Counted from the first letter of the stretch, positions 16,478-20,397 are shown. The stretch: 64,000 nucleotides of DNA from Halobaculum marinum (GCF_029338555.1 NZ_CP119989.1:1364001-1428000); one strand, 5' to 3'. The notes: a model not told the origin generated them from the sequence alone. Translations and numbers: made by a program.

Positions 16478-17005
16478 TCAGTTGTCGTTGCGCTTGACCA
16501 CGTCGCCGAGGGTCATCTTCCCGGAGGAGGAGCCCTCCCAGTCGGCGTCGTCGACGGACTCGCCTTCAACCAGCGAGATGCCGAGTTTGCGCTCCAGTTT
16601 CTGCTGGACGTCGTCGGAGGGCAAGATGTCGCCGCGTTCCAGTTTGCGGATGACGGAGGCCTTCTCGTTGATGTCCTTCGCGAGGTCTTCCTGACTCATG
16701 CCGGTCGACTCACGCGCCTGTCGGATCCGCGCGTCGTAGTCGGCGGCGACCGTCTCCATGTCGTCGAACATGTCGCGCCGCCGCCGCGTCGACGACGACG
16801 AGGACGACGAACTCGACGAGCTAGACGACGAGGACGACGAAGACGAAGAGGAGGTGGAGTACTTCGTCGAGGCGGAGGAACTGCTCTCGGTGCGGACTTC
16901 GGTGCCGAAGTCCGAGCAGTCGCCGCAGAGCTCCAGCTCTGCGCCCTCGACTTTCGTGGTGGTGAGCGACGCCTTCTCCGCGCCGCACATCTCACACTGG
17001 GGCAT
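16478..17005 (-). CDS. aMBF1-type transcription factor with zinc ribbon, poly-serine linker and HTH
   Basis: 175-aa archaeal multiprotein bridging factor 1 homologue. Residues 2-30 form a zinc ribbon (C5/C8 and C27/C30: 'CEMCG', 'CGDC'). Residues 40-75 are an almost pure serine linker with 21 Ser in a row. Residues 90-145 are a Cro/C1 HTH ('[34 protein letters not shown]'), the most conserved part of MBF1. The family links to basal transcription or the ribosome; it is not a classic repressor. A perfect 'tataaat' at 17030-17036 sets the ATG at 17005 as leaderless. The unusually long linker is discussed as a finding. Confidence 0.92.
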
Positions 17006-17163: not shown

Positions 17164-17301
17164 ATGTCCGACAACGACACCACGATGTCGACCTGGCTGG
17201 CCGAGCACCCGCGGATGATGGGCGCGCTGTTCACGCTCGTTCTCCTGCTGTCGAGTGCGGGGAACGCGATGGCTGTCAGCTCCGCCACGGCTGGACCCTA
17301 A
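17164..17301 (+). CDS. 45-aa membrane/secreted peptide (DUF7503-like)
   Basis: A 45-residue protein: a polar, acidic first third ('MSDNDTTMSTWLAEHP'), then 'RMMGALFTLVLLLSSAGNAMAVSSATAGP', one hydrophobic segment of about 16 residues followed by a possible signal-peptidase-like AMA site. It resembles a family of tiny haloarchaeal proteins that I recall as DUF7503 and that share 'WLAENPRMMG' (from memory, not checked). It sits in an AT-rich spacer with TATA-like 'atatattg' around 17127-17134. Its stop codon overlaps the stop codon of the convergent CHAT gene by 4 bp. Function unknown; membrane localisation is predicted, not proven. Confidence 0.7.
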   Translation: MSDNDTTMSTWLAEHPRMMGALFTLVLLLSSAGNAMAVSSATAGP

Positions 17302-19568
17302 TTGTTGAAAATTTCCTCGGCTGGAACTTCGTCTGACCACAGCAGCTGATTGTTGAAGCTGATCGGTGCCCTAACTTCCGAGAGGAACTCTTTCAATCCC
17401 CCTCGAGTGAATTCGTGGGTCGTCGCATCTCCCGACCCCACGTAATTCTTTTTTGAGCTTCCAATATGTGGTCGAGCCATAGTTCCTGTACTGAAATGTC
17501 TGGTCGGGTAGTAACGGAATCTTGAGGACACCTCTTCTCCCTCTGGGGCCCTGAGGAACGTCACCATCGGGACTCCAGTCGCACACTGACACAACTGCAC
17601 CAACGGGTCCCCCACGATGCTGTAGGCGTTCCCGGCGAACGGCCCGGTCCCCACCACGTCCAGCGCGGCGTACAACGGGAAGCCGGCGTCGAACAGGCGC
17701 GCCAGGTCGCGACCGACGCGCGTCGCCAGCGAGTTCGGCAGGTCCGTCAGCGACACGACGCCGCCGAGTGCGCCCGCGTCGACGAGGGCCATCCCTTGCC
17801 GGTACGACGTGCAGGCGTTCAGGAGGAACGCGTCGACACCGGTCGACTCGACGGTGTGGAGGTCGAGGAAGCCGTCGGCACACTGCATCCCACGCTCGTC
17901 GACGTGGCCGACGTAGTGGAAGAAGTCGTGCTCGCCGGCGAGGAGGTCGCGCAACTCGGCGACCGTCAGGTCGCGCTCCTCGCGGATGTCGAACGTGATG
18001 TGGTCGCGGAAACCGTACGTGTCGCCCAACTCGTCGACCATCGCCTCGTCGTTGCAGACGACGGTGACGCCGATGGTGAGGTCCTCGGCGGGCGTTCGGT
18101 CGAGGCGCCGGCGGTACGCCTCCACGGTCGGCTTCGCGGCGCCCATCGGGTAGCCCGGCCCGACCCACGCCTGTGCGATGCTGTCGGCCTCCCGGGGGGT
18201 GACGACCGTCTCGGAGTCGTCGCCCGCGTTCTGCGTCGGCCTGCGGGTGAGCGGGTCGGCGTCGTCGGCCGCGCTCCGGATCAACGACGCGCCCCGAACC
18301 GCGTCGCGGGAGGCGCGGACGAACGCGTCCAACTCGCCAGAGTCGCCGCCGCCGCTCGTCGTCGGCGACGGCGGCGGCGACCGGACCACCGACAGGTCCG
18401 CCGCGAGGAACGGGAGCACGGTCGCGTTCTCCGGTGCCGGCGCCACGTCCGTCGTGTGCGGCCAGTCGAGGCAGTCGAGCGTCGCCTCGGGCGAGACCTC
18501 CAGGTACGCGGCCGTGCGCTCGGGGAGCGGAGACTCGTACCACTCCTCCCACGGCGGGTCGAGTCGGTCGCTCAGCGTCTCGTGGACGTGCAAGTCGACG
18601 TCGTACAAGCCGGCAGACGAGGCCCGCGTCGCGCAGTCGAGGGTGAAACAGTGGCGAAGTAGCGTCGAGAGCCGCTCCGACAGCGCCTCCGGGTCGCTCG
18701 GCAGGTCGTGGCGGACGTCGCCGGCCTGCAGGTACGGCTGGTCGCTCTCGACGACCGCCGCCGCGAGGTAGAACGCCAGCGGCGTCGCCGAGTACAGCGC
18801 GTCGTACTCGAACGGCAGGCCGAGGACGACCCCCTCGTCGACTCGTTCGACGAACCGCGGGGCGGAGAACTCACCACCGCGCTCCAACAGCGGCGGGTGG
18901 CCCCGAAGCGTCGGGAACGACCGCTCCGGCGAGGTGGTCGCCAGTGCCGACCCGAACGTCGAGATAGCGCGCGCCAGCCCCGCTGGCGAGTCGGGAACCG
19001 TCACCGTCCCGGCGGGGGAAGTCCGGCGCGACCGGGCGCCGATCAGGAGTCGACCGTCGCCGACGGCGGCCTCCTCGACGGACACCTTCGGGTACCGGTT
19101 CTCGTAGGAGACGCGCGCGGGGCCGTCCACGGCGACGTACGTCTTCACCGGCGCCGTCGACAACTCCAGGACGTGCGGTCCGGCGGGGACGCGCGCGGGT
19201 GCCTCGGCGGTGGCCGTCGCCACGACAGTGTTGTCCGGGTCCCGGACGTACACGTCGGCGGTGCAAAGCGGCGTCACCGCCGTGGCGTCGACGCGCCAAC
19301 AGCCGTCGACGGGAGCGGGGAACCGGTCTGCGGCGTCGACCCGCGTCGCGCCGGCCGTCGTCGACCCGTCGGTGACTCCCTCGACGGCGACCGGGAGACT
19401 CACCTCCTCGATGGAGTCGACGAGTTCGTAGGCCGTGGGGGAGCCCCGCTCTGTCGGGACGAGTCGGACGACGGCGGAGGCCGCCCCGTCGACGCCGACT
19501 CCCGCCGGGGCGTCACCGGAGCCGGAGTGGTCGGCTCCCGACGGAGACTCCTGTTCTCGTCCTGGCAT
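17298..19568 (-). CDS. CHAT-domain (caspase-like) protein, 756 aa
   Basis: Large protein with a C-terminal CHAT (caspase HetF associated with TPRs) peptidase domain, about residues 480-660. The His motif is 'HYVGH' (H555 is the likely catalytic His) and the Cys is C586 in 'FLLNACTSYRQG'. The preceding 470 residues are beta-rich ('GCWRVDATAVTPLCTADVYVRD', 'GPHVLELSTAPVKTYVAVDG') and may form substrate-binding or sensor domains. The last 90 residues are less GC-rich and basic. CHAT proteases in other prokaryotes cut partner proteins in immunity or stress systems. ATG 19568 begins 4 nt after the stop of the upstream P-loop-like gene, so the two are one operon. Partner substrate is unknown; the 45-aa peptide is a candidate by position only. 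Confidence 0.85.
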   Translation of the reverse strand: MPGREQESPSGADHSGSGDAPAGVGVDGAASAVVRLVPTERGSPTAYELVDSIEEVSLPVAVEGVTDGSTTAGATRVDAADRFPAPVDGCWRVDATAVTPLCTADVYVRDPDNTVVATATAEAPARVPAGPHVLELSTAPVKTYVAVDGPARVSYENRYPKVSVEEAAVGDGRLLIGARSRRTSPAGTVTVPDSPAGLARAISTFGSALATTSPERSFPTLRGHPPLLERGGEFSAPRFVERVDEGVVLGLPFEYDALYSATPLAFYLAAAVVESDQPYLQAGDVRHDLPSDPEALSERLSTLLRHCFTLDCATRASSAGLYDVDLHVHETLSDRLDPPWEEWYESPLPERTAAYLEVSPEATLDCLDWPHTTDVAPAPENATVLPFLAADLSVVRSPPPSPTTSGGGDSGELDAFVRASRDAVRGASLIRSAADDADPLTRRPTQNAGDDSETVVTPREADSIAQAWVGPGYPMGAAKPTVEAYRRRLDRTPAEDLTIGVTVVCNDEAMVDELGDTYGFRDHITFDIREERDLTVAELRDLLAGEHDFFHYVGHVDERGMQCADGFLDLHTVESTGVDAFLLNACTSYRQGMALVDAGALGGVVSLTDLPNSLATRVGRDLARLFDAGFPLYAALDVVGTGPFAGNAYSIVGDPLVQLCQCATGVPMVTFLRAPEGEEVSSRFRYYPTRHFSTGTMARPHIGSSKKNYVGSGDATTHEFTRGGLKEFLSEVRAPISFNNQLLWSDEVPAEEIFNN

Positions 19569-19572
19569 CAGA

Positions 19573-20397
19573 TCACCGGAGGGGGTTCCACTCGGTCGTC
19601 CCCCACCCGAGGATGTGCCAGCGCTCCTCTGGGACGGGAGCGGTCTCGCGCGACCGGAGTTCGACGATGACGTCCAACTCGTCGCCGAGGGACTTGGCGA
19701 ACTCGTCGACGACGGGGTCAGACCGCGGGTCGCCCGAGGCCGGTCGCGGGAGGTGGATGTGCGCCATGCCGCCGCGCTCGCGCGTCTCGGCGGCGACGTC
19801 TCGAAGCAGGCGCCGCGCCGCCTCGGCGCCGACCGCGGCACACAGCGCGTCCGCACGGTAGACGCCGACCCGGAGGCCGAGTCGCTCGTCGCCGTCGGTC
19901 GCCAACTCCTCGACGGCGTGGAACACGGCCGCGCGGATTGCGTCGACGCCGACACCAGCCTCGCCACCCCCGACGAGGTCGACGCGGTCGGCGTCGGTCG
20001 ACTCGGGTGCGTCGGTCGACTCTGGTTCGTCGGGTGCGTCGGGTGCGTCGGTCGGACTGGCGGTGTCGACAGACGGATTTCCGACCGCGGCGGGGTCGCG
20101 GACTGCTCCGTCGAGTCGCACGAGGGCCGCCTCCTCGTCGCCATCCGGGTCGACCCCGTCGGGGAACCACGCCCTCGGGGCGGCGTCGTCCTGCGTGAGC
20201 GCGAGTAGTCGCTGGCGTCGGCGGTCGGCGGCACCGAAGTAGCGCGAGGCGGCGACCCGGTAGGCGTCGTCCGGGGCGTCGCCCGTCACGAGGACGCAGC
20301 ACCCGTCCTCGAGGGCTGCGAGCGCCGACGAGAGTGTCGCGTCCGGTCCCCGAACGAGTGGGACGTCGACCCCGACGTTGTCGGGCGTACCGGTCAT
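19573..20397 (-). CDS. Degenerate KaiC/P-loop-like protein (DUF7504-like)
   Basis: 274-aa protein. The N-terminal half begins like a RecA/KaiC-type domain: 'GPDATLSSALAALEDGCCVLVTGDAPDDAYRVA', but the Walker A lysine is missing. Residues 115-150 are an Asp/Pro/Ser linker coded by short repeats; the C-terminal part ('LGLRVGVYRADALCAAVGAEAARRLLRDV...MAHIHLPRP') keeps a Rossmann-like pattern. It matches my memory of haloarchaeal DUF7504/'HTR-like' proteins, often signalling-related, but I cannot verify it. ATG 20397 is leaderless with a TATA-like 'gtttttg' near 20424-20432; the CHAT gene follows after 4 nt. Possibly a non-ATPase sensor or scaffold for the CHAT protein (inference). Confidence 0.75.
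   Translation of the reverse strand: MTGTPDNVGVDVPLVRGPDATLSSALAALEDGCCVLVTGDAPDDAYRVAASRYFGAADRRRQRLLALTQDDAAPRAWFPDGVDPDGDEEAALVRLDGAVRDPAAVGNPSVDTASPTDAPDAPDEPESTDAPESTDADRVDLVGGGEAGVGVDAIRAAVFHAVEELATDGDERLGLRVGVYRADALCAAVGAEAARRLLRDVAAETRERGGMAHIHLPRPASGDPRSDPVVDEFAKSLGDELDVIVELRSRETAPVPEERWHILGWGTTEWNPLR

Follow-up and report, generated by a model that had tools for sequence, protein, structure and literature searches.

Organization of the locus

The 64,000-nt stretch of Halobaculum marinum DNA analysed here (NZ_CP119989.1, positions 1364001-1428000; hereafter the window) carries, at 17164-20397, a small peptide gene of the DUF7503 family, a gene for a caspase-like CHAT protein convergent with it, and a gene for a DUF7504 protein. 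A first-pass annotation of this DNA had placed the three open reading frames (ORFs; 45, 756 and 274 amino acids) exactly, together with the 4-bp stop overlap of the convergent peptide and CHAT genes (17298-17301) and the 4-nt gap between the minus-strand CHAT and DUF7504 genes (19569-19572). It had also named DUF7503 and DUF7504 as haloarchaeal neighbours, and rightly so: the peptide scores 68.8 bits against Pfam DUF7503 (PF24335) and the 274-residue protein 90.2 bits against DUF7504 (PF24336), the cut-off being 27 in both cases. The features of the locus are the following.

17164..17301, plus strand: DUF7503 peptide gene, 45 amino acids, MSDNDTTMSTWLAEHPRMMGALFTLVLLLSSAGNAMA-VSSATAGP (PF24335, 68.8 bits; alignments)
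17164..17274, plus strand: conserved leader of the peptide, with basic HP[R/K], hydrophobic stretch and A-x-A end, in signal-peptide layout
17275..17298, plus strand: hypervariable C-terminal tail of the peptide, VSSATAGP, predicted mature ligand
17298..19568, minus strand: caspase-like CHAT protein (P0003), 756 amino acids
17301..17606, minus strand: hypervariable C-terminal domain of the CHAT protein, residues 655-756, predicted ligand-recognition domain
17275..17606: hypervariable cassette across both convergent 3' ends (tail and CHAT C-terminal domain), from the nucleotide identity profile, covariation and control genes
17607..18203, minus strand: CHAT catalytic domain, residues 456-654
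17904..17906, minus strand: codon of catalytic His555, invariant in 90 homologues
17811..17813, minus strand: codon of catalytic Cys586, invariant in 90 homologues
19573..20397, minus strand: DUF7504 protein (P0001), 274 amino acids, no Walker A motif, optional upstream partner

CHAT proteases are effectors in CRISPR and gasdermin immunity. The active site that had been read directly from the sequence, H555 and C586, is invariant in the 90 homologues, and so are H551, G554, N584 and S588. An AlphaFold model of the protein (predicted local distance difference test 85, predicted template modelling score 0.87) matches, over residues 368-660, gingipain R (Z 18.5), separase (Z 16.1), SAVED-CHAT (Z 15.4) and the TPR-CHAT protein of Craspase (Z 14.3). 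By its modelled fold and invariant His/Cys dyad, the CHAT protein is a predicted clan CD protease of cytosolic type. It shares the two-part caspase-like fold and the dyad with Csx29/TPR-CHAT of Craspase, SAVED-CHAT, separase and gingipain; unlike them, it has an N-terminal region of its own and an additional hypervariable C-terminal domain. A further difference from the CHAT immune proteases is the convergent peptide that accompanies it, and neither a CRISPR nor a gasdermin gene was seen next to it. The 756-residue protein matched no Pfam or NCBIfam family and gave no PADLOC match; NCBI labels homologues in Halomarina and Halorussus 'caspase family' or 'CHAT domain-containing'. Homology of the CHAT protein to RRNPP TPR regulators or AgrB/AgrC found no support, since neither the Pfam and NCBIfam profiles nor the PDB sequences gave a match, and the fold relatives found for the C-terminal domain were too weak to use (Foldseek best E 0.38, VIA best Z 4.5). 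The N-terminal region contains a strongly conserved motif at residues 177-226, G-R-S ... T-S-P-E-R-S-x-P-T-L-R-G-H-P-P.

A near-universal pair and its optional neighbour

Among 145 genomes of the haloarchaeal class, CHAT is present in 131, DUF7503 in 120 and DUF7504 in all 145, the last mostly in multiple copies; Haloferax volcanii, taken as a Pfam control, carries both DUF families. The first-pass annotation had proposed that the three genes belong together. For the peptide and the CHAT gene this holds far above chance: 127 of the 150 listed DUF7503 genes adjoin a listed CHAT gene, 126 of these 127 pairs are convergent, and the two genes are mostly less than 100 nt apart. Nine of the 23 DUF7503 genes that have no listed CHAT neighbour were inspected, and a CHAT gene was adjacent in all nine. 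The CHAT gene and its convergent peptide are therefore a near-universal haloarchaeal pair. An obligate triad is ruled out, since DUF7504 adjoins the pair in just 28 of 60 loci (in 25 of these upstream and in the same direction), and for this reason we regard it as accessory.

In Halobaculum and two sister genera the locus occupies a constant chromosomal site, with tpiA/MBF1-like genes on one side and a CDP-alcohol phosphatidyltransferase gene on the other. The pair was also confirmed on named plasmids of Halomarina, Haladaptatus and Halorussus; on a named plasmid of Natronococcus, the peptide ends ...NGGGIR. A phylum-wide search found CHAT relatives outside the class in only four genomes of one family, and these lack both the conserved C-terminal domain and a convergent peptide ending in Gly-Pro (GP). 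One relative from that family (L293:2043-4106) has seemingly lost the dyad motifs (FIGR, FFLCTD), and related genomes retain versions of them.

The DUF7504 protein had been called KaiC-like, with a missing Walker A lysine. The missing lysine is borne out for P0001, and no recognisable Walker A motif occurs in an alignment of 37 DUF7504 sequences. The KaiC-like label is unsupported: hhalign against the genome's own KaiC proteins gave a probability of 2%, and no PDB chain matched significantly by sequence. One DUF7504 protein (L121:7566-9041) has an additional N-terminal part, and one alignment member, probably the same protein, matches the halobacterial output domain HalOD1.

The locus had been framed as a possible immune system. 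In such a scheme, infection would trigger the CHAT protease via DUF7504, the protease would cleave the peptide or another target in a suicidal response to virus, and the peptide would be its substrate or a membrane toxin. The role of CHAT proteases in CRISPR and gasdermin immunity is in its favour, and the conserved HP[R/K] beside the membrane segment would suit an Arg/Lys-specific clan CD protease, Arg-specific gingipain and separase being among the nearest folds. However, PADLOC returned only a chance-level match of the peptide to Cas3 (E 0.05) and none for the other two proteins, no match to phage records was found, the distribution is near-universal, the chromosomal place is fixed within the genus and shared with the two sister genera, and DUF7504 is often missing. 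We consider this scheme improbable.

Leader, tail and the hypervariable cassette

The peptide alignment gives the leader consensus [YF]L-x-x-[HN]P[RK]-M-x-G-x-LFT-(hydrophobic)-SQAG-x-A-A-A. The tail that follows is 8-9 residues long in 107 of 116 peptides and ends in Gly-Pro in 109. Position -1 before the tail is Ala or Gly in 114 and position -3 is Ala or Val in 110, and the tails are near-neutral, averaging 0.15 charged residues. A Sec signal with a short neutral peptide behind it would be arranged in the same way, which suggests that the tail is probably exported. Within one genus, peptides with an identical leader end in QATSVAGP, VAQTTPGP, AAVVNPGP or IAKTNPGP. The proportion of synonymous differences (pS) is 0.78 in the tail versus 0.26 in the leader, and paralogous pairs within one genome shared a tail in none of 14 comparisons.

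The variation is not confined to the peptide. Within genera, hypervariability covers the ~100 C-terminal residues of CHAT and the 8-9 residues that end the peptide; the remainder is 85-97% identical. Nucleotide identity falls from ~0.88 to ~0.5 over a block that begins ~300 nt ahead of the CHAT stop codon and runs ~30 nt beyond it, and recovers in the leader. Of the five genera profiled, g1, g2, g5 and g24 show the block most clearly, with sharp edges; in g22 the edges are less clean and the intergenic gap is longer. Divergence of 3' ends in general is ruled out, because identity drops by 0.44-0.45 in the CHAT gene and by at most 0.09 in 16 other genes around the same loci. In the CHAT part of the block, synonymous differences are elevated as well (pS 0.75 vs 0.31-0.36 in g2), which fits old or swapped alleles and not amino-acid change alone.

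The two variable ends also vary together. Among close relatives, the partial correlation (r) between tail distance and CHAT C-terminus distance, given the distance of the CHAT core, was 0.56, 0.67, 0.71 and 0.66 at four thresholds; the corresponding values for the linker, the N-terminus and the catalytic domain lay between -0.16 and 0.12. None of 500 within-cluster permutations of the tails reached the observed covariation. At a core identity of at least 0.85, C-terminus identity was 0.86 for identical tails and 0.45 for the least similar tails. Fast evolution in general cannot be the cause, since the linker evolves fast without covarying with the tail. These comparisons indicate that the tail and the C-terminal ~100 residues of the CHAT protein diverge jointly and independently of the other CHAT parts. 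No silent cassettes of the C-terminal domain were found near the loci outside the CHAT genes. A mere recombination hot spot at the convergent junction, with no functional matching, would account for the elevated synonymous divergence by block replacement; the neighbouring genes without a comparable drop argue against it, as do two observations on other loci given below, and we think it very improbable.

In two genomes the convergent place of DUF7503 is taken by a predicted tandem-repeat precursor.

L151:6984-7489: tandem-repeat precursor, 13 GP units
L152:6937-7196: tandem-repeat precursor, 7 GP units

The unit, TADGN[SG][GS]GISGP, matches the tails of related loci (e.g. GNHVGISGP). The 13 units are identical as protein, with a proportion of nonsynonymous differences (pN) of 0.000 at a pS of 0.577. 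They contain no Arg or Lys, a further point against the peptide being cut by an Arg/Lys-specific suicide protease. A divergent CHAT subfamily lacks DUF7503, and here a convergent ORF ending in GP was found at 21 of 31 loci, compared with 9 of ~1940 other ORFs (P about 3e-29). The partners are unrelated proteins, some soluble (AKRVSTYGGP) and some membrane-bound. The protein-level conservation of the repeat unit (pN 0) and the recurrence of GP-ending convergent partners on unrelated proteins are the two observations that speak against a mere hot spot. The tail thus appears, from these comparisons, to be the functional unit of the peptide.

The window's own genome has a second pair (L159:4811-8100; G000:C1 about 1827500-1830800), in which a divergent CHAT gene faces an HPR-membrane-GP peptide, ...SRHPRAVTTALLMVLLLLSADTAAAFEFGVGTHTVGDVSQGP, that the Pfam DUF7503 model misses. 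At six loci (L216, L223, L252, L254, L255 and L257) soluble convergent partners end in RAKRVS[ST]YGGP or similar; the dibasic site directly before the tail could suit an Arg-specific protease.

A conserved leader, a hypervariable core and multi-core precursors are also what a halocin or a ribosomally synthesized and post-translationally modified peptide would have. In such a peptide the leader would guide processing and the tail would be the core, modified or antimicrobial, with CHAT as processing protease or immunity protein. However, processing enzymes usually accept many cores without covarying, whereas the CHAT C-terminus covaries with the tail. No recurrent modifying enzyme was seen among the neighbours, which were not surveyed systematically. 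We regard this origin of the peptide as quite improbable.

Beside the peptide gene, an HTH_3 protein is encoded on the minus strand (window 16478-17005); its start resembles a zinc finger, and a long poly-serine run occupies its central part. Rfam and promoter/terminator scans gave no useful match, archaeal promoters being outside the coverage of the scan.

A candidate peptide ligand of a caspase-like protease

The first-pass annotation had taken the small peptide as target or effector of the protease. The hypervariable, covarying 3' block and the Gly-Pro tail shift the reading to the tail as a cognate ligand. On this evidence we hold it about evenly balanced that the locus encodes a peptide ligand and a caspase-like protease, with the specificity of the pair residing in a single DNA cassette. 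The C-terminal domain of the CHAT protein would recognise its cognate tail, and binding would switch the protease on or off. Less certainly, the conserved leader would act as a Sec-type signal, and the tail would be cut off after A-x-A and leave the cell. It may then, again less certainly, be taken back up, so that cells sharing a tail/receptor allele recognise one another in the manner of a pheromone or kin system. At loci that include it, DUF7504 would have a supporting regulatory role. The wider proposal, that secreted Gly-Pro-tailed 8-9-mers controlling a caspase-like protease form a near-universal haloarchaeal pheromone or allorecognition system with specificities co-inherited in one cassette, is a tentative one.

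Several observations weigh against this interpretation. The CHAT protein looks cytosolic, so an exported tail would need re-import, and no importer was identified. Neither a signal nor a membrane segment is present in the tandem precursors or in several divergent-subfamily partners (...AKRVSTYGGP); this is the main point against obligatory export and suggests that the tail can function without the Sec route. The GP partner is invisible at 10 of the 31 divergent loci, and two loci (L157, L158) have tandem CHAT genes with no GP-ending convergent peptide visible. The pN/pS ratio of the tail is below 1. At the level of single residues, no coupling between tail and C-terminal domain rose above the permutation null, the strongest (r 0.71) facing a null maximum of up to 0.74. 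In addition, adjacency in the DNA means that joint transfer, and not contact, may partly explain the covariation. Even with joint transfer, the tail and the C-terminal domain are one inherited unit.

The soluble GP partners leave room for an intracellular role in the manner of an antitoxin or guard. The tail, in or facing the cytoplasm, would bind the CHAT protein of its own cell through that protein's C-terminal domain; binding would hold the protease inactive or site it at the membrane, and loss of or damage to the peptide would free it. Partners without a signal still end in GP, CHAT is predicted to be cytosolic, the covariation is pair-specific, and paralogous pairs of one genome differ in their tails, all of which agree with such a role. 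However, the Arg/Lys on the N-terminal side of the membrane segment and the A-x-A end of the common partner predict a tail outside the cell, and a purely private interaction needs no strong allele diversity within genera. We judge an intracellular partner somewhat unlikely.

The preferred reading, with the tail as a cognate ligand, recalls the Gram-positive agr and RRNPP/Rap-Phr systems, in which a short leadered peptide has a linked cognate receptor, allele groups occur, and both parts of the specificity lie in one hypervariable DNA block. The haloarchaeal locus likewise combines a leader and a short, variable, predicted mature peptide with a linked candidate receptor part that appears to diversify with the peptide. 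Unlike agr and RRNPP, it is archaeal, its genes are convergent and not co-directional, its tail ends in Gly-Pro, and in place of a histidine kinase or TPR regulator it has a caspase-like protease as candidate receptor. The tandem precursors resemble multicopy precursors of the yeast alpha-factor type in their identical tandem peptide units under strong purifying selection, but neither a signal nor known processing sites can be recognised in them, and they occur in two haloarchaeal genomes only. By the features tested, the CHAT-peptide pair belongs neither to the Gram-positive pheromone systems nor to the CHAT immune proteases.

Cell-cell signalling and caspase-like proteolysis have both been reported in haloarchaea. 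Haloferax volcanii produces a quorum-sensing signal, DFS, which survives proteinase K and is extractable with ethyl acetate; the paper does not give its identity (PMC12240190). A caspase-like activity of the same species cuts after Asp, and the paper does not give the protease gene (PMC3615174). No evidence ties this proteinase K-resistant signal or this Asp-cutting protease to the CHAT-peptide locus, and a link to either would be speculation. A literature search returned no paper naming DUF7503 or DUF7504, nor any on CHAT together with haloarchaea.

Haloarchaea thus have, in this locus, a concrete and near-universal candidate for a caspase relative paired with a cognate peptide that is specific to the allele. 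If this is true, peptide-based self-recognition in archaea would be tied to a protease of the caspase type.

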